A stretch of 34,093 nt of DNA from a virus, in the IMG/VR virus record IMGVR_UViG_3300025162_000118, positions 1 to 34,093 of that record, one strand, 5' to 3'. Numbering within the stretch: the stretch's first letter is position 1; every line of letters starts with the position of its first letter. The notes under the pieces are model-generated. The model saw only the letters and a list, made by a program, of their open reading frames with translations, was not told the DNA's origin and made no database searches. The position numbers and the translations under genes were made by a program. Of this stretch, positions 1,132-31,076 are shown one piece after another.

Positions 1132-1158
1132 TTAAGTTTTTCCACCATCGACCGATAA
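1132..1158 (+). promoter_or_regulatory. Sigma-28 (FliA/SigD)-like promoter 1
   Basis: TTAAGTTT at 1132-1139, 11 bp, then ACCGATAA at 1151-1158. The known sigma-28 consensus is TAAAGTTT-N11-GCCGATAA, so this matches 7/8 and 7/8 at the exact spacing. Directly downstream lies the perfect inverted repeat TTATTG-TAAG-CAATAA (1161-1176), placed where an operator or 5' leader hairpin would be. It precedes the gene at 1230. Confidence 0.75.
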
Positions 1159-1229
1159 GTTTATTGTAAGCAATAAAAGTTAAGTATGAGGGAAACGCGA
1201 ACGGAAAAATCTTAAAGGGAGGAGACACA

Positions 1230-1526
1230 ATGAAACGATATGACTGTGTTACTTCGGAAAGTTCAAATCATTCCACGCCTTACGGGAAAATGGTGGAGGA
1301 TGCCGCTGGGGAGTATGTGAGGCATGAGGATGTAGAGGAAAAACTGGAGGTGCTTGACCAGATTGTAACTTATCTGGTTGACGAAGGAGAATGGAGTGCT
1401 GACAGTGTTGATACTATTTTCCACATTCTGGAACGCGCTGGGCTCTTGAAAGCAGATGATCAGGGATATGCAGTTCGCGCTGATGGAAGTAGGGCAAGGA
1501 CTGAATGGTATCGGGAAGAAAAATAG
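1230..1526 (+). CDS. Hypothetical acidic protein, 98 aa
   Basis: I do not recognise this protein. It starts at an ATG behind a strong ribosome binding site (GGGAGGAG). It is acidic and hydrophilic, predicted helical in the middle (about residues 34-75: VEEKLEVLDQIVTYLVDEGEW and following), with no signal peptide or membrane segment. The second half (DTIFHILERAGLLKAD) looks like a small helical fold that could bind a protein partner. It is the first gene behind the first sigma-28-like promoter and is followed directly by the second, so it is probably expressed as a single-gene unit. Confidence 0.7.
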   Translation: MKRYDCVTSESSNHSTPYGKMVEDAAGEYVRHEDVEEKLEVLDQIVTYLVDEGEWSADSVDTIFHILERAGLLKADDQGYAVRADGSRARTEWYREEK

Positions 1527-1528
1527 CC

Positions 1529-1555
1529 TCAAGTTTTTCCAGTTTTTGCCGATAA
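1529..1555 (+). promoter_or_regulatory. Sigma-28 (FliA/SigD)-like promoter 2
   Basis: TCAAGTTT at 1529-1536, 11 bp, then a perfect GCCGATAA at 1548-1555. The inverted repeat TTATTG-TAAG-CAATAA recurs at 1558-1573. From the -10 box on, about 35 bp are identical to promoter 1, so the two leaders are copies of one another. It precedes the broken gene at 1599. Confidence 0.8.
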
Positions 1556-1598
1556 GTTTATTGTAAGCAATAAAAGTTAAGTATAGGAGGGAATGATC

Positions 1599-1914
1599 AT
1601 GGGACAGAGACACCAAATTTATGTGAAATTACCGGATATCTATTTCAACGAGGCCAATCCGAACAATCATAAGGGGGTGGTCATAGGGATACATCATCAA
1701 TGGCTTTGGGGTTCTCGGGCATTGTCTTTGCTGTCTCAATTTTTGGTATTTGGTCTGTGATGACTTTAATTTGGATGAGGAATTGGAGACTGATATAGGG
1801 AGTAGCAAGAGGATAGCGGAAAAGATAGTGATAGCGAGGTTACATCAAGAGATAGCGAGACTGAACATTATTGCGAATTACATCAAGACAGGAGGGAAGG
1901 GCGCACATGAATAA
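1599..1914 (+). pseudogene. Frameshifted phage gene (RHQIYVKLP family)
   Basis: An ATG with a strong AGGAGGG site opens a 53-codon frame (MGQRHQIYVKLPDIYF..., then VIGIHHQWLWG) that ends at TGA 1758-1760. I associate this opening with a conserved phage protein family of unknown function. A second frame, one base ahead, continues without a stop from before the TGA to 1914 and encodes a hydrophilic helical segment (DFNLDEELETDIGSSKRIAE and following). Its stop overlaps the next gene's start (ATGAATAA), as expected for a real coupled 3' end. Together they give about 105 residues. It is either a gene broken by one indel, a sequencing error, or a +1 programmed frameshift at CTG-TGA-TGAC. Confidence 0.6.
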
Positions 1915-2077
1915 AATAAAAGAAAAATATTATATGCTTTATGCTTTATCGACTGGAATAATGGCGGCACTGATTGGCGTGGGTATTAGCTTTCATTTTA
2001 TTGGCTTAGTTATTATTGGAGTTGCTGGACTTTTGATGGATGGATATGCCTTAAATCGCTTTAACAGAATGTTTTGA
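1907..2077 (+). CDS. Small two-helix membrane protein, 56 aa
   Basis: Short hydrophobic protein beginning MNKIKEKYYMLYALSTG. Two membrane segments are visible, roughly residues 9-28 and 30-46, separated by a very short turn (SFHF), so it should be a hairpin in the inner membrane. I chose the ATG at 1907 because AGGAGGGAAGG lies upstream and the start overlaps the stop of the preceding reading frame; an upstream TTG has no support. Function unknown; holin-like size, but there is no lysis context here. Confidence 0.65.
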   Translation: MNKIKEKYYMLYALSTGIMAALIGVGISFHFIGLVIIGVAGLLMDGYALNRFNRMF

Positions 2078-2103
2078 TGGGTAAGGGGGGAGGGAGTAAC
2101 GCC

Positions 2104-2361
2104 ATGGATAGAAAGTATCAATATTTAAAATTCGATAAAGTTCGCGATGCAGTGACGGGCAAGTGGAGGATAGAAAATATAGAGGAGACTGAATATTATT
2201 TCACTTGTGAGCCTGAAAAAATTCTTGCCAGCCTAAAAAAACTGTGTAGATATTCCAGTCAGCAGAAGACTTTTTATCTGGAAATTGGCGCTGGTCTGAT
2301 AGCGGTCTGTACTCGGGTGGCCAGCACTCCCATATTTTTAGTGAAGTTGATTGAAGAATAG
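2104..2361 (+). CDS. Hypothetical protein, 85 aa
   Basis: Not recognised. The protein starts MDRKYQYLKFDKVRDA at an ATG preceded by GGGGGAGGGAG. It is mixed alpha/beta with a hydrophobic C-terminal stretch (YLEIGAGLIAVCTRVASTPI) that is more likely a buried core than a membrane helix. It follows the small membrane protein after 26 bases and ends just before the third sigma-28-like promoter, so it is likely the last gene of the transcript started at promoter 2. Confidence 0.65.
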   Translation: MDRKYQYLKFDKVRDAVTGKWRIENIEETEYYFTCEPEKILASLKKLCRYSSQQKTFYLEIGAGLIAVCTRVASTPIFLVKLIEE

Positions 2362-2364
2362 TCC

Positions 2365-2391
2365 TAAAGTTTTTTCAGTTTGTGCCGATAA
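2365..2391 (+). promoter_or_regulatory. Sigma-28 (FliA/SigD)-like promoter 3, perfect consensus
   Basis: TAAAGTTT at 2365-2372, exactly 11 bp, GCCGATAA at 2384-2391. All 16 consensus positions match, which is very unlikely by chance in one short intergenic gap. The downstream inverted repeat seen at promoters 1 and 2 is degenerate here (ATTGTAAGCAGT), so that element is not needed for the promoter match itself. It drives the gene at 2437. Confidence 0.88.
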
Positions 2392-2436
2392 GTTAATTGT
2401 AAGCAGTGGGGCTTAAACATTAGGAGGAGAACAAAA

Positions 2437-3261
2437 ATGGGTTACACCAATTATTTGAAAATCAATAAGGACAAAATACCAGCAGCTTTTGATTTTTCCA
2501 AATTAAAAAGCACATTACTAGCCATATTGTCTTCCGATGTTGATGAAATAATTCTAGGAGGGCCGACAGGAACAGACGGAGATTGCATTTATGTTGGCGA
2601 TAATGAAATTGCCTTTAATGGTATAGGTGAGGATAGCTATGAAAGCTGTGAATTGCCCTTGTGTCGAGAAAAATGCGAAGAGTTTTCATTTTGCAAAACT
2701 GCTGAGAAACCCTATGATAAGTTTGTATTGGCTTGCTATTTTGCCTATAAACATCATTTGCAAGATGCGGTGGGGGTGGGGACTGATGGGAAGAATTCAG
2801 ATGGAACTTTTGATATTCCAGTTTCTGAAGCTCATTGTTTATTTTTAAAATCGACAAGTCTTAATTATGCTTTGCCAGACTTATTTTCACATGGAAAGAT
2901 TGTACAGTCCGAAGTAATTACCAAAGTGAAGAAGAAAAAAGAAGTTAGAATTTTAAAAAATGCATTAGAAGTCATTAGCAAAAGTTTAAATAAAAGTGAC
3001 CATAATGTAGATTTTGAAATTATCCATAGATTGCCAGACAATAAAGTTATTAAAATCAATATTACTATCGACCAAAATCCAATACAATCTCGATCTGTCA
3101 GTTATAAATGGGATGGGAATCAATGGCAAATAATATTTCATGAGCATTATGGAAATATTCAGTTAGTGAAAAATAAACTCCATTTGAAAAATATTGTTGC
3201 TTCTGATTTTAATGATGATTACCAGAAGTTATTAAAAGTAACGTTAGATATTCTTCGCTGA
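2437..3261 (+). CDS. Phage protein of the MGYTNY/MGYTHY type, 274 aa
   Basis: The N-terminus MGYTNYL, the segment FNGIGEDSYESCELP (about residues 60-74) and FCKTAEKPYDKFVLACYF (about 86-103) resemble a family of conserved phage proteins that usually begin MGYTHY and whose role is not known to me. Four or more cysteines cluster at about 72-87. The second half (from about residue 165) starts with a lysine run and is a separate, more hydrophilic domain. It starts behind AGGAGGAG, is driven by a perfect sigma-28-like promoter and ends at a strong terminator, so it is a stand-alone transcription unit. Confidence 0.72.
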   Translation: MGYTNYLKINKDKIPAAFDFSKLKSTLLAILSSDVDEIILGGPTGTDGDCIYVGDNEIAFNGIGEDSYESCELPLCREKCEEFSFCKTAEKPYDKFVLACYFAYKHHLQDAVGVGTDGKNSDGTFDIPVSEAHCLFLKSTSLNYALPDLFSHGKIVQSEVITKVKKKKEVRILKNALEVISKSLNKSDHNVDFEIIHRLPDNKVIKINITIDQNPIQSRSVSYKWDGNQWQIIFHEHYGNIQLVKNKLHLKNIVASDFNDDYQKLLKVTLDILR

Positions 3262-3289
3262 AACCATTTTTCTAATTTCTTCTTCTTCC

Positions 3290-3325
3290 AAGGCTAGAAC
3301 ATAAAATTCTGGCCTTTTAATTTTT
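3290..3325 (+). terminator. Rho-independent terminator
   Basis: AAGGCTAGAA pairs with TTCTGGCCTT around the loop CATAAAA, a 10-bp stem with a single G-U pair, followed by TTAATTTTT. It lies 28 bases after the stop of the 2437-3261 gene and only 3 bases before the next sigma-28-like -35 box, insulating the two units. Confidence 0.8.
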
Positions 3326-3328
3326 CCC

Positions 3329-3355
3329 TAAAGTTTTTCCGATTGTGTTCGATAA
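3329..3355 (+). promoter_or_regulatory. Sigma-28 (FliA/SigD)-like promoter 4
   Basis: A perfect TAAAGTTT at 3329-3336, 11 bp, then TTCGATAA at 3348-3355 (6/8). As in the other copies, the -35 box is followed by TTCC. It precedes the lipoprotein gene at 3395. Confidence 0.75.
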
Positions 3356-3394
3356 ACCTAGTGAGAGAGAACTAAATTTCATAGGAGGTTAAGT

Positions 3395-4492
3395 ATGAAC
3401 AAGTTCTTAAGTCCCGCAATTTTAGTCGTAGTGACTGCGTGTGGAAGCATCAATTTGACCAATAATGGAAACATCAGTAATGATGTTAACGCCAAGTTGT
3501 CAGTGCCAGGAACAGCAGACACTCCAGCAGTTACGGCGGCAACTCCAGCCACCATCACCACCAGCGCCACCATCACTAGCACTACCGAGCCAGCAATTCC
3601 CACAGTAGCCGCAACAGGAACGCCGATTACCATTGCCAAAACAGTCATAGCCGCAACAACAGAAGCAGCAATAATAGCAGTAGATACCACCGTCACAGAG
3701 CCAACAGCAACGGCAGAACCCACAGTGGTACCAGATGCCCCAATCGCAACGGCAGAACCGACAGTGGTACCAGATGCCCCAATCGCAACGGCAGAACCGA
3801 CAGTGGTACCAGACACCCCAATCCTGACCCCAAGTCCGACCGCTGCAATACCAAGTCACATGGAAACACCAACCCCAACTCCAGCGCCAACAGCTACTCC
3901 AACTCCCAGTCCTACACCTATGCCTACACCTCCACCGGTACCAGCGCAGTTTAGTGATCCATCTTTTTGTGTTAACCGGATTGAAAATGAAGTGTATGTT
4001 TTCTGTGAGGAAATGGTGACCTATGATGTTGCGATGGATAATGTGCCGATGGGTTATTCAGTGCTTCAAATCTCCTTTAAAGCAGCTAATGATCCTAATA
4101 TACCGGATAACTCAGTACCTGATAGAATTCCATTAAAAAATCTCATTAATCCTGAACATGAAACTCGGGCTTGGACATTAGAAGACTGCTCAGAAACCGA
4201 ACCAGGATATCAAAGATATAGTTGCATTCACAGCACAAATGGTTATTCAAACATTATGACCTATAACATCCAATTTATGCCTCAACTTGGCAGGAGGGGT
4301 TACGCTGTTCAAAGCCATGCTATCGATCCGGATATTCCTTTTCAACAAAATTCAAGCGTGTACTGGAATCTAGGCCAAGCTGAATCTCCCACTCTTCCCC
4401 AGTATTGTGGCTGCGTCAGTGGAACCTCATATGCTGGCTGTTATGGATGGGTTTTCTATCCTATGGCTCACCCTCTTTACAAGAAAAACTGA
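3395..4492 (+). CDS. Surface lipoprotein with Thr/Pro-rich stalk, 365 aa
   Basis: The N-terminus MNKFLSPAILVVVTACGS is a lipoprotein signal with lipobox VTA|C (Cys16). Residues about 45-185 form a low-complexity Ala/Thr/Pro stalk that includes three 13-residue repeats (ATAEPTVVPDAPI type) and a run of P-T-P repeats. From about 186 to the end there is a compact domain with at least seven cysteines (SFCVNRIENEVYVFCEE; YCGCVSGTSYAGCYGW), suggesting disulfides and an extracytoplasmic location. The start has a good AGGAGG site. Family unknown. A phage-encoded cell-surface lipoprotein could block receptors or exclude other phages, but that is inference only. Confidence 0.75.
   Translation: MNKFLSPAILVVVTACGSINLTNNGNISNDVNAKLSVPGTADTPAVTAATPATITTSATITSTTEPAIPTVAATGTPITIAKTVIAATTEAAIIAVDTTVTEPTATAEPTVVPDAPIATAEPTVVPDAPIATAEPTVVPDTPILTPSPTAAIPSHMETPTPTPAPTATPTPSPTPMPTPPPVPAQFSDPSFCVNRIENEVYVFCEEMVTYDVAMDNVPMGYSVLQISFKAANDPNIPDNSVPDRIPLKNLINPEHETRAWTLEDCSETEPGYQRYSCIHSTNGYSNIMTYNIQFMPQLGRRGYAVQSHAIDPDIPFQQNSSVYWNLGQAESPTLPQYCGCVSGTSYAGCYGWVFYPMAHPLYKKN
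3707..3823 (+). repeat. Three 39-bp in-frame tandem repeats
   Basis: Three near-identical 39-bp copies (3707-3745, 3746-3784, 3785-3823) inside the lipoprotein stalk, each coding 13 residues (ATAEPTVVPDAPI type). Copy number of such units commonly varies by slippage, which would change stalk length. Confidence 0.9.
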
Positions 4493-4501
4493 AATAAACC
4501 G

Positions 4502-4528
4502 TTAAGTTTTTCCTTTGGTGGTCGATAG
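4502..4528 (+). promoter_or_regulatory. Sigma-28 (FliA/SigD)-like promoter 5
   Basis: TTAAGTTT at 4502-4509, 11 bp, then GTCGATAG at 4521-4528 (6/8). The TTCC after the -35 box is kept. It is the weakest of the five and lies 22 bases before the short frame at 4551. Confidence 0.62.
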
Positions 4529-4550: not shown

Positions 4551-4664
4551 ATGAAGAAGAAAAACCAGAATGACCTACAAATTAAGGTGAAGAAGAGTTC
4601 GCAAGTGTGTATAAGGAGGCTGTCCTTGTTCCTGCTGGGCGCTACTAGGAGGTATCCATCATGA
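4551..4664 (+). CDS. Possible small basic protein or leader peptide, 37 aa
   Basis: The ATG follows GAGGGG and opens a short lysine/arginine-rich frame (MKKKNQNDLQIKVKKSSQV...) ending with a hydrophobic patch (LSLFLLGAT). Its TGA overlaps the ATG at 4661. Two AGGAGG motifs lie inside it (about 4614 and 4647), the second being the site for 4661. It may be a real tiny gene or simply a leader. Low confidence. Confidence 0.35.
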   Translation: MKKKNQNDLQIKVKKSSQVCIRRLSLFLLGATRRYPS

Positions 4665-5763
4665 CGAAGCAAGTAATAATAGCGAGTACATAGCCAGCTT
4701 TAAAAGAAAGATAAACCAGTTAGTTGGGAAAATCCATCATTCCCTTACCTTGGAAAAGAGATATCTCGGTAACAAAGCGCATTACCGTTTAGCGGCAGCA
4801 AGGGAAGGCAATATAAACAAACAAACAAAGAAAGATGCAGCGATGTTAAAAAAATCAAAAAAAATGAATCAAAGACTAGCACCAAGAAAAAGAGAGACTC
4901 CACCGGAAAAAGTTGCTGAGATTTGTAAGCTGCGCAGTGAAGAGAAAAGTCATGCGGAAATTGCATCTATTACTGAAATTCCACTGAGTACTATAGGTTG
5001 TATTCTTCGTAAACATTGGTCACCACCGCCATTATTTCCTAACAAAATCCGAAACAGAACACCTCCAGCGCCACCACAATTACAAATAAAGCCTAATCCT
5101 TCTCCTAAACCAGCGCAATCCTCAACAGATAGTAATTATTGTTTTTTCTTTTTCCTTAATGATCCAGGCCAAAAAATCGTAGAGTTCGTGCAGACCGATG
5201 AGTTCAAACGGTTCCTGAGAAAGCGCATCATAGAGACTAAAGATTTACAGTTATTGGCCACTGCATTGCGTTCCTATGAAGAGAATAAAAAGATGAGGGG
5301 GGGACGGGAGGGACTAATCACTTTGGAGCTAATACAGGCATTCCCAGAGTGTTTTGATGCCAATGATATTTTAAAACTTGAAGGACTTTCGGCAGAAAAT
5401 ATAACTGAAGAAATTGCTCATGAAATTCTGGAAAAGAATGACATTGAAAAGTTAATGCCAGAAGTTATTAAGGCTTTGCTGGAAAAAATACCGTTTGAAA
5501 AGAAAATCTCAAGCCAATTTAAAGGAGTGACAGACTATTTTATTAAACATTCTGATTTGGATACACGGCTTACTATTTTCCTTAATAAAAAGTCAGTCTT
5601 TGATCTCGGTGCGATGATCCAATACTTTAATACTATTCCTTTAGAGAAGTTGAAGCCAGGAATAAATGAAGACAATATTTTGTTTTTCCAGGAACAGATA
5701 GTCAAAGCAGAAGACAAAGATTTACTTATCATTTTATGTCGGAAACTCATGCATAAAGAATAG
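4661..5763 (+). CDS. HTH-containing protein with apparent frameshift near its start, about 365 aa
   Basis: The main frame is open from well upstream of 4661 to 5763, and a TTG at 4750 lies in it. The only strong start signal, AGGAGG plus ATG at 4661, is one frame off and stops after 10 codons, so either a base is missing or gained near 4672 or an internal start is used (ATG 4843 is another option). Domains, numbered from 4750: a lysine-rich N-terminus; a helix-turn-helix at about 52-88 (PPEKVAEICKLRSEEKSHAE, then IPLSTIGCILRKHW); a Pro-rich linker at about 91-125; and a helical C-terminal domain. It is probably a DNA-binding protein. It is followed 13 bases later by another HTH protein. Confidence 0.6.
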
Positions 5764-13407: not shown

Positions 13408-16400
13408 ATGCAAATACTTGATCCTGGTTCAAAATTTCTTTCCCAATTAGTCCATTACCGTACATATGCAGCAACTCAGCCTGATGGGACAAAAGAAAAT
13501 AAAGAACAAATGTTCCGGCGTGTCGAAGCTATGCACCTCAAAAAATATCCACAACTGGATTACGAAATTAAAGAATCATTCGATGCCGTGATGGAAGGAT
13601 TAGCCTTGCCCTCCATGCGGTCATGCCAATTTGCCGGTAATGCAATCGAAAGGGAAAATACTCGTATCTACAATTGCTTTGGGGCAGAAACTGAATTTTT
13701 AACACCCGAAGGAATTAAAAAATTCTCTGATTGTCGTAATGGAGAAGAAATAACAGTTTTAGCTTCAGGCCATCAATGGAAACCAGCCGTTGTTCGTTCA
13801 TTTGGCGAACAATTATTATACAAACTAACCATACGTAGGGGAAGATCCGAACAAATTATTTTTACGACCGCAGATCATAACTGGTATCGATATAAAAAAA
13901 TCCATAAGGACGGTCCAAAACAGCGAGAAATTGTTTCCACCTTAAGCCTTCAAAAAGGTGATATTCTTCCCACAAATCGACTTACGATTGAAGAACAAAA
14001 GAGAGATATGCATTGGTCTGTTTGTAATATAGAAAAAACAGACCGTATTGAACAAGTATGGTGTGTCACTGAACCTCAAACCTCATCTTTTACATTAGGA
14101 TGCGGAGTTTTGACGGGAAATTGTTCATTTTTGCCAATAAATTCAATAACTTCTATAAGTGAATTGTTTTTTATTCTTTGTTGCGGTGCTGGTGTGGGAT
14201 TAAGTGTAGAGAAAATAAACACTAACAAAATAGACGAAATATCAATTGGATATGATGCTTGGTTCGTCGTTCCTGACTCAAAAGAAGGTTGGGCAGATTC
14301 TGTTAAAAAACTGATCATGAATCCAAAAACTCAATTCGATTATTCTTTGGTTAGGCCAGAAGGGTCGGCTTTATCAACTGGCGGTACTAGCTCAGGTCCA
14401 TCGCCTTTGAAACATTGTCATGAAAAAATTAGAACTATTCTATATAATGCAAGAAATAGAAGACTAGAACCTATTGAATGCGCCGATATATGCTGCTTAA
14501 TTGCCGACTGTGTGGTCGTTGGTTCCGTTCGAAGAAGTGCATTATTAATCATGTTTGATAATGATGACGAGGCTATGTTATGTTATAAATCTGGAGAATG
14601 GTATTTACACTCTCCTCATCGAGCTAGGGCTAATATATCTGCAACTATTTTTAGAAAAGACACAAAAGCTAAACAGTCTTTTAATAGAATATTGAACCAT
14701 TGTTTCGAGAGTGGAAGCGGTGAACCTGGAATAATATGGACTAACGCTCCTAGCAGTGGATGGGGCTTAAATCCATGCCTCTCTGGAGATACATTAGTGG
14801 CAGTAGCGGATGGAAGAAATGCGGTTCCTATTAAAGATTTGATAGGAACAACTTATCCAGTATATGCTATAAAAAAAGGATCTGTTGTTATAAAACAATC
14901 GATAAAAACATGGAAAACAAGAGAAAATGCTGAGATATGGGAATTAACACTTGATGATAATTCAGTTTTAAAAGCCACTCCTGATCATAAAATTATGCTT
15001 AGAGATGGGACTTATAAAGAATTAAAAGACTTAATCGTCGGTGACAGTTTAATGCCATTTAATTCTTTTGTCGATAAAGATAAATACCGTCAAATAGCAA
15101 CAAACAAAGGCAAAGGTAAGTTTCAATATAGAATGATTGCTAAATATTTTAATATTAAAAAAAGCAACCAAGATGTACATCATATAGATAGGAATAGTTT
15201 CAATGATAGTCCTAGTAATTTAATGCCAATGAATAGAAAAGAACACGCTGAATTGCATGGGAAATTTCATACTGGAACAAATAATAGCATTTTTAAAATT
15301 AAAGATAAAGAAAAATGGAGACAACGTCTTAGTGAAAATAAAATAGGATTAAACAATAATAAAGCTTATGAAATAGACAACGCAGCCCTTTTTCTGAAAG
15401 CCATTGAAGAGACTAAAAGAGTAAATCGAAACTTACGCATAGGAGACTGGTTAATATATGCAAAAGAAAATCACTTACCTAGAAAATTTTCAAGTTACCG
15501 AAAAAACGAATTAGGAACCATAAGTGAAATGTTAATGAAAGCTGCTATTGAGGCAAATGTACCTATAACTAGCAAACGAATCCGAAGAGTTCCTATAAAA
15601 GCAAAAAAAATAAAAATTCCTCTAAGCAGACAAGAAATATATGACAGACAATTAATGTCTTTTGCCAAAAAAAAGGCAATAATAAAAAACCAACAGATCG
15701 ATATTTACTTAACACTTAAGCTTGAACTCAACCGAAAACCACAAAAAAAAGAGTGGGTCGAATCATGCAAACAAAAGAACACATCATATGAAATTAGCAG
15801 AAAATCAAGCCCTTTTAAAAACTGGAATGAATTAATAAAAGCTTCCGATATACATAATCATAGAGTTAAGTCTATTAAATTCCTGTGTTATGATGACGTT
15901 TATGATATGACAGTGGAGGAAGTTCATAATTTTGGAGTAATTACTAGTAAAGAAGATGATTCGGCAGTAGTATCTTCTGGTATATTTATCCGAAACTGCG
16001 TTGAAGCATCACTTAGGGATTTCGAATTCTGCAATTTAACATCAACTAATGCCGCAGCTTGTGATAATCTTGAAACATTTTTAAGAGCAGTCAAGGCAGC
16101 AACAACAATAGGGACACTCCAGGCCGGATATGACAAATTAGGCTATTTACGTCCCGAATGGCGCAAAAACATCCAAGAGTCTCGACTTCTAGGTGTCTCC
16201 ATGACTGGAATAGCAGAAGCATGGGATCTATTAACCTCTGATGTTTTGCTTGCAGGCTCAGACCAAATAAACAAAATCAATACTGAAATAGCGGCTAAAA
16301 TCGGGATTAACCCAGCGGCGAGGAAAGGGTGTGTCAAACCGGAAGGGACAGGCAGTGCAGCCCTTGGAGTCTCATCAGGAATTACAGCACATAAGGATGA

Positions 16401-16926
16401 ATACTTCTGGCGCAGGGTGAGAATGGATAAAAATCATCCCTTGTCTGTCTATTTGTCCCTGATGTTACCTGCAATATTTGTCGAGCAAGATGTAATGAAT
16501 CCAAATAATATTGTAGTCAATGTTCCGATTGCTAAGCCAGGATCGCTCACCACAGTTAAGGAAAGTGCAATAGGACTGCTAGAAAGGGAAAAGCGAATCT
16601 ACCAGAACTGGATTTTACCGAGTCACACTTCAGGATTAAACACACATAACGTTTCTATCACTGTCAATTATAAAGAACACGAAAAAGAAGACATACGAGA
16701 ATGGATGTGGAAGAACAGACAATACTATTCTGGCATCGCGCTTTTTCCTGAACTCACTACCATATATCCTCAACTTCCCTTCGAGTCTATGCCTAAAGAA
16801 AAGTATGAGGAAGTCATTAAAGAGCTGCCAGATTTGGATTTATCCATCATTAACTATACTGAGATTGAAGACGACCGTAAACAAGAGGCAGCGTGCGCAG
16901 GAAGTGGCTGTGAATGGGGACAGTAA
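13408..16926 (+). CDS. nrdJ: Class II (B12-dependent) ribonucleotide reductase with two inteins, 1172 aa precursor
   Basis: Makes deoxyribonucleotides from ribonucleotides using adenosylcobalamin. After removal of both inteins (149 and 407 residues) the exteins total 616 residues, somewhat shorter than the 739-residue Lactobacillus enzyme. Catalytic residues are in place: the joined GLNP-CVE has the radical cysteine (Cys864) and Glu866; Cys875, 11 residues on, and Cys239 are the redox pair; Cys1163 and Cys1168 (CAGSGC) form the C-terminal shuttle pair. KPEGTGSAALGVSSG (977-991) is the phosphate-binding region. No small subunit gene is nearby, as expected for class II. The thioredoxin-like gene at 17912 could reduce it. 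Confidence 0.9.
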   Translation: MQILDPGSKFLSQLVHYRTYAATQPDGTKENKEQMFRRVEAMHLKKYPQLDYEIKESFDAVMEGLALPSMRSCQFAGNAIERENTRIYNCFGAETEFLTPEGIKKFSDCRNGEEITVLASGHQWKPAVVRSFGEQLLYKLTIRRGRSEQIIFTTADHNWYRYKKIHKDGPKQREIVSTLSLQKGDILPTNRLTIEEQKRDMHWSVCNIEKTDRIEQVWCVTEPQTSSFTLGCGVLTGNCSFLPINSITSISELFFILCCGAGVGLSVEKINTNKIDEISIGYDAWFVVPDSKEGWADSVKKLIMNPKTQFDYSLVRPEGSALSTGGTSSGPSPLKHCHEKIRTILYNARNRRLEPIECADICCLIADCVVVGSVRRSALLIMFDNDDEAMLCYKSGEWYLHSPHRARANISATIFRKDTKAKQSFNRILNHCFESGSGEPGIIWTNAPSSGWGLNPCLSGDTLVAVADGRNAVPIKDLIGTTYPVYAIKKGSVVIKQSIKTWKTRENAEIWELTLDDNSVLKATPDHKIMLRDGTYKELKDLIVGDSLMPFNSFVDKDKYRQIATNKGKGKFQYRMIAKYFNIKKSNQDVHHIDRNSFNDSPSNLMPMNRKEHAELHGKFHTGTNNSIFKIKDKEKWRQRLSENKIGLNNNKAYEIDNAALFLKAIEETKRVNRNLRIGDWLIYAKENHLPRKFSSYRKNELGTISEMLMKAAIEANVPITSKRIRRVPIKAKKIKIPLSRQEIYDRQLMSFAKKKAIIKNQQIDIYLTLKLELNRKPQKKEWVESCKQKNTSYEISRKSSPFKNWNELIKASDIHNHRVKSIKFLCYDDVYDMTVEEVHNFGVITSKEDDSAVVSSGIFIRNCVEASLRDFEFCNLTSTNAAACDNLETFLRAVKAATTIGTLQAGYDKLGYLRPEWRKNIQESRLLGVSMTGIAEAWDLLTSDVLLAGSDQINKINTEIAAKIGINPAARKGCVKPEGTGSAALGVSSGITAHKDEYFWRRVRMDKNHPLSVYLSLMLPAIFVEQDVMNPNNIVVNVPIAKPGSLTTVKESAIGLLEREKRIYQNWILPSHTSGLNTHNVSITVNYKEHEKEDIREWMWKNRQYYSGIALFPELTTIYPQLPFESMPKEKYEEVIKELPDLDLSIINYTEIEDDRKQEAACAGSGCEWGQ
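13675..14121 (+). other. Mini-intein in the ribonucleotide reductase, 149 aa
   Basis: It begins CFGAETEFLT (block A, Cys90) and contains TTADHNWY (block B, with the conserved Thr and His), VWCVTEPQTSSFTL (block F) and GVLTGN followed by Cys239 (block G). No endonuclease domain is present. The penultimate residue is Gly, where most inteins have His, so C-terminal cleavage relies on another group. The +1 Cys is one of the redox-active cysteines of the enzyme. Confidence 0.88.
14776..15996 (+). other. Large intein with HNH endonuclease, 407 aa
   Basis: It begins CLSGDTLVAV (block A, Cys457), with ATPDHKIML (block B), DVYDMTVEEVHNFGV (block F) and SSGIFIRN before Cys864 (block G). Between them an HNH homing endonuclease motif is seen (VHHIDRNSFNDSPSNLMPMN, then KEHAELHGKFH, residues 590-621), followed by a lysine-rich DNA-binding region (about 625-815). 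The penultimate residue is Arg instead of His. The insertion point is immediately before the thiyl-radical cysteine, so unspliced enzyme must be dead. Confidence 0.9.
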
Positions 16927-21437: not shown

Positions 21438-21782
21438 GTGAATAATCATCAACGTAAAGAAAAAAAAATAAAGAGACGACACTTAAGAAAAAGAAATTTT
21501 ATGGATGATAATTGTTGGGATATGAATGAAAATGCAGACTTTGGCGCACTAACAGAATTAATGAAAAACATGGACAAGACTGCATTTTTAAAAGATCATC
21601 CTGACTGTTATCTCTGTGAAAAACCGAGCAAAGAGATTGGCTATACTTTTACTCCATGCGGTAAACCTCTCACCTATACATTATGCGAATTCCATGCAAA
21701 CGAAGACAATATTTTTTCGTCTGAACGTGCAGTTACATTTAAACTTTTTGGTCTGGATGATTTATTTGAGGAGAGCTTATGA
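21438..21782 (+). CDS. Hypothetical zinc-binding protein, 114 aa
   Basis: The GTG start has AAGGAG upstream. The N-terminus is very basic (QRKEKKIKRRHLRKRN). Residues 57-86 hold Cys57-x2-Cys60, Cys74 and Cys83-x2-His86 (CYLCEKPSKEIGYTFTPCGK then CEFH), a likely treble-clef or zinc-finger site. The stop overlaps the ATG of the SPFH gene (ATGA), so the two are translated together. Role unknown. Confidence 0.65.
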   Translation: MNNHQRKEKKIKRRHLRKRNFMDDNCWDMNENADFGALTELMKNMDKTAFLKDHPDCYLCEKPSKEIGYTFTPCGKPLTYTLCEFHANEDNIFSSERAVTFKLFGLDDLFEESL

Positions 21783-22594
21783 AGAAATGTTTTGGATTAT
21801 TGTCATTATTGGCTGCTGTTGGTTGCTCTAAAGTTGAGGCAGGCCATGTTGGGATTATCGTGGATATGTACGGAAGTGATAGGGGGGTGTCTGAGAAAAC
21901 AGTCGGTGTTGGCCGTTATTTTCTAGGATGGAATGAAGAGCTTTTCACTTTCCCGACAAGTCTTCAAAATTATGTATGGACTCGTTCGGTAAATGAAGGG
22001 AAAGCTACAGATGAATCCATTACATTCCAAACCAAAGAGGGACTGAGTGCTAATGGCGATTTCGGGGTAACTTACTCAATTGACCCTGCTAAAGTTGTCG
22101 TTGTATTCCAAAAATATAGAAAAGGAATTGATGAGATAACCGATGTGTTCCTCCGTAATATGGTGAGAGATGCATTTAATACTGAAGCCGCTAAGATGGC
22201 AGTGGAAGAAATCTATGGAACAGGTAAAAAACAATTAATGGATGCTGTCAATAAGAGTGTTAAAGAGCAAACTCATCCTATGGGAATTGAAATCGAAAAG
22301 ATATATCTCATTGGAGAGTTCAGATTGCCACAACAAATTACTGATGCAGTTAATTCAAAAATTGGCGCAACCCAAAAGGCTATGCAAATAGAAAACGAAC
22401 TCCGTGCAACCAAAGCTGAAGCAGAAAAGGTAGTCGTAAAAGCTGAGGCAGAAGCTAAAGCAAATCTGGCTTTACAAAAAAGTCTATCCAAAGATTACCT
22501 GGAATATTTAGCTATCCAAAAATGGGACGGTAAATTAAGCCAAATATCTGGAGGTGCCACACCGTTTATTGACTTAAGGAATGCCACTAAATGA
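21779..22594 (+). CDS. SPFH/prohibitin-family lipoprotein, 271 aa
   Basis: The N-terminus MKKCFGLLSLLAAVGCSKVE carries a lipobox (AVG|C, Cys16). Residues about 22-180 match the SPFH (stomatin/prohibitin/HflKC) core: AGHVGIIVDMYG, TFQTKEGLSANGDFGVTYSI, FLRNMVRDAF and MGIEIEKIYLIGEFRLPQQI. A Glu/Ala/Lys coiled coil (about 195-235) follows, as in family members that form large membrane rings. Usual SPFH proteins have a transmembrane anchor; here a lipid anchor would place it on the periplasmic face. Ser at +2 would favour the outer membrane by the E. coli rule. It overlaps the next gene by four bases. Confidence 0.82.
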   Translation: MKKCFGLLSLLAAVGCSKVEAGHVGIIVDMYGSDRGVSEKTVGVGRYFLGWNEELFTFPTSLQNYVWTRSVNEGKATDESITFQTKEGLSANGDFGVTYSIDPAKVVVVFQKYRKGIDEITDVFLRNMVRDAFNTEAAKMAVEEIYGTGKKQLMDAVNKSVKEQTHPMGIEIEKIYLIGEFRLPQQITDAVNSKIGATQKAMQIENELRATKAEAEKVVVKAEAEAKANLALQKSLSKDYLEYLAIQKWDGKLSQISGGATPFIDLRNATK

Positions 22595-30077: not shown

Positions 30078-31076
30078 ATGAAAAATGTTGTAATCCTCAA
30101 AGCAATAATCTATAGATCCGCGCTCGAATATCTCTGGGATCAGGGTTTCATTGGAGTCCCTTATCCAGGGATAACAAACGCTACTGGCTCATGCGAAGCC
30201 GTCAGTAATGTGTTCAAATTAGATGAACAAAGATTTCAAACTCTCAGTCAAACAGTACAGCTCCATTTAGAGCAAGATATTATTAAGCATGGTTTGCCTA
30301 GAATGTTCAGCACAAATCATAGTTTTAGAAAAGATAATAAGAACTGGATATCGGATGGTAGACACTTAAATCAGTTCCAACTGCTGGAATCGGAGGCCCT
30401 TGATACAGATTTAGTATGGCTTTTATCGCACTGTAAAGGACTACTAAACCACATTTTCAAAAAAGTCATGTCAGTCAGTTCGCTTTACGGACTTCTTACA
30501 CCGGAACAACACCACAATCTTTACTACTACTATGAAAAAGGATTTAGGATTATCAGGTATGAAGATGCTATTGGTATTTTAGGACTGGAATTTGGAACTG
30601 ATTTGAGCAGTAAAGATGAGCAAGAGTTGGTCAATAAGTTTGATAGCAATCTTATGATCACCCATTATCCTGAGAAAATTAAATTCTTCAACATGCTATT
30701 AACAAGAAGGCCCGGATATAATTATGAAGTTTGGAAAGAAGGCTGGCTAACCAAAAATGCTGATAAATGGTATAACGAAAAGCAGACTGTAGATTGTGTT
30801 GACGTTATTTTAAAGCATAGTGGCGAGTCCATAGGTGGGTCTGTAAGGGAATATGATTATGACTTTATCAAAGACAGACTGGACAATGGAATAATGCTGA
30901 CCCAATTGAAAGAAATGAAGGCAAAACATGATGGCAAGCCAGAAGAGGTTGAAGATATGTTTGCAGAATATTTAGCCCTATTTAAAGACAATCCTATACA
31001 GAGATCAGGTATGGGAATGGGCTTTGGCAGGGTGGCGCAATTCATTCTAGGCACAAACGATATTATTCCGTTTTGA
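30078..31076 (+). CDS. Asparaginyl-tRNA-synthetase-like catalytic core, 332 aa
   Basis: Class II aminoacyl-tRNA synthetase motifs of the Asp/Asn branch are clear: the opening GFIGVPYPGITNATGSCEAV (23-42), motif 2 FRKD...GRHLNQFQLLESEA (Arg84, then 94-107), HSGESIGGSVREYDYDFI (247-264, like the AsnRS GGxxR segment) and motif 3 GMGMGFGRVAQFILGTNDI (311-329, Arg318). The N-terminal OB-fold anticodon-binding domain is absent: the core starts at residue 1. Such core-only paralogues can make asparagine or modify other targets, as AsnRS-like AsnA proteins do. The AAGGAG site is six bases from the ATG. Confidence 0.82.
   Translation: MKNVVILKAIIYRSALEYLWDQGFIGVPYPGITNATGSCEAVSNVFKLDEQRFQTLSQTVQLHLEQDIIKHGLPRMFSTNHSFRKDNKNWISDGRHLNQFQLLESEALDTDLVWLLSHCKGLLNHIFKKVMSVSSLYGLLTPEQHHNLYYYYEKGFRIIRYEDAIGILGLEFGTDLSSKDEQELVNKFDSNLMITHYPEKIKFFNMLLTRRPGYNYEVWKEGWLTKNADKWYNEKQTVDCVDVILKHSGESIGGSVREYDYDFIKDRLDNGIMLTQLKEMKAKHDGKPEEVEDMFAEYLALFKDNPIQRSGMGMGFGRVAQFILGTNDIIPF

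Follow-up and report, generated by a model that had tools for sequence, protein, structure and literature searches.

Probable flagellar sigma-28 (FliA)-class promoters ahead of small accessory gene cassettes in a large tailed phage

Phages are known to have their genes transcribed with the main sigma factor of the host or to bring a sigma factor of their own, and to our knowledge no phage group has been described that relies on the flagellar sigma factor for whole gene arrays. The present study asks whether five elements in one virus record constitute such an array, and which sigma factor would read them. The window, meaning the whole stretch of DNA that was analysed, is the 34,093-base virus record IMGVR_UViG_3300025162_000118. 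A preliminary description of it, made from the sequence alone, had claimed that five plus-strand pairs of boxes with exactly 11 bp between them, one pair being perfect, each precede a gene or leader, that they are of the FliA/SigD type rather than the sigma-70 type, that they are read by the motility sigma factor of the host or by a phage sigma factor of the same kind, and that accessory gene expression is thereby linked to host motility.

Nearly all of the window recurs at 99.8% identity, with a shift of 26 bases, in the longer record IMGVR_UViG_3300022555_000060 (hereafter G001; 60,795 bases, ~60.8 kb). The genome is A+T-rich (38% GC). The proteins recovered include a major head protein, a tail sheath matched by that of Myxococcus phage Mx1, a DnaB-like helicase, and a B12-type ribonucleotide reductase and a DNA polymerase III alpha subunit that each carry an intein, and the virus is therefore a large tailed phage. 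The inteins observed (window 13408-16926, G001 44267-46618, and G001 54332-59128) are carried by the ribonucleotide reductase, where an HNH domain is present, by DNA polymerase III alpha, and probably by a GroEL-like chaperonin.

The first claim held exactly as stated. Sites of the form TAAAGTTT-N11-GCCGATAA start at 1132, 1529, 2365, 3329, and 4502, all on the plus strand, with 2, 1, 0, 2, and 3 mismatches, so that the third (P3) is matched at 16/16 positions, and the spacing is 11 bp in all five. Each is followed in the correct orientation by a ribosome-binding site (RBS) and an open reading frame (ORF) 22-71 nt downstream. The block is laid out as follows, with putative promoters, predicted transcription starts, and information scores from the FliA matrix described below:

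1132..1158, plus strand: promoter P1, TTAAGTTT-N11-ACCGATAA, 14/16; predicted start ~1166; 16.1 bits, rank 3 in the phage
1230..1526, plus strand: cassette 1 gene, 98 aa, orphan; the sole relative found is in the same phage
1529..1555, plus strand: promoter P2, TCAAGTTT-N11-GCCGATAA, 15/16, immediately behind the gene 1 stop codon; predicted start ~1563; 21.5 bits, rank 2
1593..1760, plus strand: first ORF of cassette 2, 55 aa, preceded by the RBS aggaggg; further small ORFs extend to 2361
1871..2361, plus strand: remainder of cassette 2, with ORF 1871-2077 encoding a small hydrophobic protein and ORF 2074-2361 an unknown protein of 95 aa
2365..2391, plus strand: promoter P3, perfect TAAAGTTT-N11-GCCGATAA, 16/16; predicted start ~2399; 23.3 bits, rank 1
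2437..3261, plus strand: cassette 3 gene, 274 aa, orphan (from the ORF list and a homologue search)
3290..3316, plus strand: terminator-like stem of 10 pairs, loop of 7, with a tail rich in T, separating cassette 3 from P4
3329..3355, plus strand: promoter P4, TAAAGTTT-N11-TTCGATAA, 14/16; predicted start ~3363; 13.7 bits, rank 7
3395..4492, plus strand: cassette 4 gene, a predicted lipoprotein of 365 aa (lipobox VTAC) with Pro/Thr-rich repeats, from reading of the sequence
4502..4528, plus strand: promoter P5, TTAAGTTT-N11-GTCGATAG, 13/16; predicted start ~4536; 14.6 bits, rank 4
4551..4664, plus strand: first ORF of cassette 5, 37 aa, followed by ORF 4750-5763 (337 aa)

Counted from the last base of the -10 box, the ATG lies 71 nt away in P1, 37 in P2, 45 in P3, 39 in P4, and 22 in P5, and a preceding stop codon lies within ~10 bases of P2, P3, and P5. 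The block genes that were tested are orphans confined to this phage: searches of IMG/VR with genes 1230-1526 and 2437-3261 returned no homologues except in the same phage.

Such an array is not expected by chance. The number of matches of this quality expected in the window is 0.50 (sd 0.69), and five were reached in none of 100 dinucleotide shuffles. When the same boxes were sought at spacings of 8-10 and 12-15, the best matches were at most 13/16, and 14/16 was never reached in G001 or in the 70.6-kb relative G003. In each of the five sites, 7-8 of the 8 positions fit the -35 box TAAAGTTT or a functional variant of it; the -10 box GCCGATAA is matched at 7/8 positions in P1, 8/8 in P2 and P3, and 6/8 in P4 and P5, the two weakest, which lack the initial bases or the final A.

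Recognition class was evaluated using a FliA matrix of two 8-mers built from the 25 sites of score >4 in an Escherichia coli FliA ChIP-seq table (PMC4183435), whose own sites, scored leave-one-out, have a median of 15.8 bits (quartiles 12.9-18.4). In the whole-genome scan that the preliminary description had proposed, which we ran on both strands of G001, the five sites rank 1-4 and 7: P3 (23.3 bits), P2 (21.5), P1 (16.1), and P5 (14.6) are the top four and P4 (13.7) is seventh, where ~2.4 matches of ≥12 bits are expected by chance in 60.8 kb; P4 and P5, taken alone, are near the genome-wide chance level. We tested 23 transcription-unit heads of G001, and a sigma-28 site that is significant (p ≤ 0.003) was present only at the five heads of the block. 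The best sigma-70 matches (TTGACA-N16-18-TATAAT) upstream of the block genes reach 7-8/12 (p 0.49-0.94 versus shuffles), which is background, and a few other heads in G001 have plausible but individually weak sigma-70 boxes, such as TTTACA-17-TATATT before 50,369 on the minus strand. The window sites share with the class 3 flagellar promoters of E. coli (PMC4183435) the -35 box TAAAGTTT, the -10 box GCCGATAA, the 11-bp spacer, and the tolerated variants TTAAG/TCAAG and ACCGATAA/GTCGATAA; the ChIP-bound sites of ycgR (TTAAGTTT...ACCGATAA) and tsr (TAAAGTTTTTCC...) closely resemble P1 and P4, respectively. Unlike the E. coli promoters, they lie in a phage and are arrayed before orphan accessory genes rather than flagellar genes. 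The claim of a FliA/SigD rather than a sigma-70 type is thus supported by the ChIP-seq matrix and the background sigma-70 scores, and also by the recurrence of the motif before non-homologous genes that is described below.

A referee might object that the five sites are not five observations. Over 61 nt, P1 is identical to P2 at 87% of positions, with P3 sharing 67%; because these flanks are shared, P1-P3 are partly copies of one another and arose at least partly by duplication, so that the sites lack full independence. The scores of P4 and P5 are lower, and the case for these two rests partly on their position and on the relatives of the phage. A narrow pattern that includes the TTTTTCC spacer had 26 single matches in IMG/VR, and TTCC is a local feature of the window phage. 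Independent support for the motif comes from relatives and not from the window copies.

Relatives were found by a capsid protein search, at 49 to 80% identity; those summarised as bearing the motif have capsids 50-66% identical, and their sites precede unrelated genes. In G003 (capsid 63%, other shared proteins 23-59%), four sites with 16, 16, 15, and 16 of 16 positions matched lie on one strand between 41.4 and 46.3 kb, and the genes just behind them have no homologue in the window block. A 15-kb relative (G013, capsid 57%) has five sites with a spacing of 11 or 12, and G012 and G011 have several each, some with a spacing of 12. In the 169-kb G006 there are ~17 copies of TAAAGTTA-N11-TCCGATAT, along with sites of another class, TTAAGTTT-N13-ACCGATAA, nearly all members of both classes being placed before an RBS and a gene. 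Shuffled controls yield ~0-2 matches of 13/16 or better per record. Two more members of the capsid family, G020 (6-7 sites) and G026 (10), have their sites clustered within 8-10 kb, and G015 and G040 likewise bear sites. The genes behind the sites are mostly unrelated to one another, and conservation between relatives is confined to the pair of boxes, the spacing between them, and the start-site positions, and does not extend to the spacer or the flanks. The promoter has been kept across relatives and the genes have not. In the TTAAGTTT-N13-ACCGATAA class of G006 (96-169 kb), six of seven predicted transcripts start with a stem-loop no more than 1 base from the predicted start; such 5'-terminal stem-loops were found as a consistent feature of this one class only and not of the window promoters, among which the predicted P3 transcript has a 5-bp stem-loop close to its 5' end.

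Beyond this family, an exact search of IMG/VR for TAAAGTTTT-N10-GCCGATAAG returned 72 distinct sites in 62 stretches. An RBS and ORF were found within 200 nt downstream of 60 of the 72 (median 32 nt), versus 135 of 566 random positions (24%; median 98 nt), and these extended sites are likewise promoter-like. Several sites occur in many of the 50 array-bearing records, and none of the 50 contains the pattern in reverse; the records were selected for having one site, and the additional sites were unselected. The capsid family is shared by 7 of the 50. Positions that the search had not fixed agree between the IMG/VR set and the phage family, with a C before the -35 box and a T before the -10 box, and in both sets a T followed by a purine is found 7-8 nt after the -10 box and resembles the start site.

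As to which sigma factor reads these sites, the proposed search for a phage sigma gene was run and found none in G001: the Sigma70_r4 model (PF04545) detected no sigma-70-family gene in G001 or G003, and the FliA/WhiG model (TIGR02479) together with Sigma70_r2 (PF04542) detected no clear gene in 27 of the 29 records searched, which bear arrays or are related, including G001, G003, G006 (169 kb), G013, G015, G026, and G040 (163 kb). A clear FliA was found in none of the 29. The two exceptions encode an RpoD-like protein of 415 aa (G062) and a divergent protein of 331 aa (G019), neither of which is FliA-like above the cut-off. Sub-threshold sigma matches in G035 and G064 fall in frames with internal stops, and partial Sigma70_r4 matches in the distant relatives G004, G005, G006, G008, and G009, of which G006 is array-bearing, fall in frames of ~180-216 aa. 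Since G001, its closest relatives, and most of the array-bearing records yielded no sigma-70-family gene, the FliA of the host is the simplest and likeliest reader, and of the two options in the preliminary description it is the one favoured. Recognition by the host factor is inferred, as neither a host FliA nor any transcript data are at hand, and a phage sigma factor is not excluded, because all of the phage records examined may be fragments and a sigma gene could sit outside them. As a separate observation, G019 (136.8 kb; sigma-like gene at ~116 kb) has nine sigma-28-type sites spread across the genome.

The five elements are, in our judgement, likely to be sigma-28 (FliA)-class promoters of accessory cassettes, read most probably by the FliA of a flagellated host. 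The motif, its statistics, its placement, its conservation in relatives, and the absence of a detectable sigma gene are shown; recognition, timing, and purpose are inferred. Under this model, each promoter would drive one small cassette composed of the promoter, a leader, and one or a few small accessory genes, transcription would start ~8 nt past the GCCGATAA box, and the host FliA holoenzyme would read the promoters of the block while the remaining phage genome would use others. The cassettes may be switched on in motile cells, probably early, in the manner of the host-takeover modules of other large phages, and the putative purpose would be to express accessory (possibly host-takeover) genes at a high level in cells infected while motile. 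The early host-takeover modules of SPO1 and T4 comprise many small orphan genes, each with its own strong promoter, and the window block is like them in having small orphan genes behind individual promoters. Those modules use the housekeeping sigma factor of the host, whereas the boxes in the window are of the flagellar type. The claim that accessory expression is linked to host motility remains an inference only, as neither an identified host nor a mapped transcript stands behind it.

Three rival explanations were considered. The one that survives best, though we regard it as unlikely, is that the promoters are real and are read by a phage-encoded sigma or transcription factor that is made early and mimics the specificity of FliA. 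Large phages often encode sigma factors, the factors of G062 and G019 exist, and the window is a fragment. Against this, 27 of the 29 records, the long G006 and G040 among them, have no clear sigma-70-family gene, the two factors found do not resemble FliA above the cut-off, and the boxes agree with E. coli FliA sites position by position, which a separately evolved factor need not do. A second rival, which we consider very unlikely, holds that the elements are not promoters but cassette-boundary repeats (recombination or insertion sites) that travel with mobile genes. The similarity of P1-P3 extends past the boxes, a stop codon often directly precedes the elements, and the genes behind them are orphans; the limits of conservation in relatives, which exclude spacer and flanks, speak against it, as do the nearby RBS and ORF that most sites face and the match to a FliA matrix that was derived from experimental data. 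The third rival, that the sites are sigma-70 promoters of the host or arise by chance in A+T-rich sequence, could draw on the 38% GC genome and the near-chance scores of P4 and P5 alone; it is very improbable and already contradicted by background sigma-70 scores upstream, five matches versus 0.5 expected, and conservation in relatives.

If the host FliA reading is correct, the motility state of the host would gate phage gene expression, loss of FliA could confer phage resistance beyond that due to loss of a flagellar receptor, and the promoter signature would indicate, from sequence only, that the host of an uncultured phage is flagellated and has FliA. The full-text literature searched yielded no account of arrays of phage genes controlled by FliA; most subscription papers lie outside it, and novelty is thus unproven.

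The identity of the host can be approached only loosely. Among isolated phages, Myxococcus phage Mx1 (OR576727) is the closest relative, as judged by its tail sheath (the only match), its DNA polymerase III alpha, and its major capsid protein, at 24-31% identity. This kinship raises the possibility that the host belongs to the former deltaproteobacteria. No sigma-28-type site was found in the 169.6 kb of Mx1 scanned, and Myxococcus is without flagella; the absence of sites fits a flagella-less host. In Bdellovibrio bacteriovorus, FliA runs most attack-phase promoters, with the consensus TTAAG-N16-CCGATA (PMC3627812), and is essential (PMC5430801). A phage tuned to FliA would be sensible there, because FliA controls the attack phase and cannot be lost. 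These attack-phase promoters (PMC3627812, PMC5430801) are like those of the window in that the FliA regulon reaches far beyond flagella, and differ in that they belong to cellular genes and have a published spacing of N16 versus the N15 counted for the window sites. Bdellovibrio-like predators are an attractive possible host and a lead only; no link to the window phage has been shown, and the bdellophage phi1422 has one weak site only. A bolder reading, which we would hold as a conjecture that falls short of being favoured, is that in one lineage of large phages, and possibly in several phages unrelated to each other, the accessory or host-takeover modules have come under the flagellar sigma factor of the host, gearing infection to the motile or attack stage, perhaps in predators with a FliA-run phase of the life cycle.

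A capsid search of GTDB genomes returned as its sole match a phage contig of 5 kb that is binned with an archaeon. The contig CAIQQL010000021.1 (capsid 65%), which bears two sigma-28-like sites, is placed by GTDB in the bin of an uncultured archaeon and is probably a mis-binned phage contig.

Three further features were observed in the window. The gene at 30078-31076, which adjoins the major head protein gene, matches a class II aminoacyl-tRNA synthetase (Pfam D/K/N model), and 21779-22594 encodes a protein that has a Band 7/SPFH domain and a signal resembling that of lipoproteins (PHROG lipoprotein family). At the start of the contig, 13-base tandem repeats (GCTGGTTCGCTAC) form two arrays in opposite orientation (15-110 and 444-591), which constitute inverted arms of ~96 bp each, ~330 nt apart.
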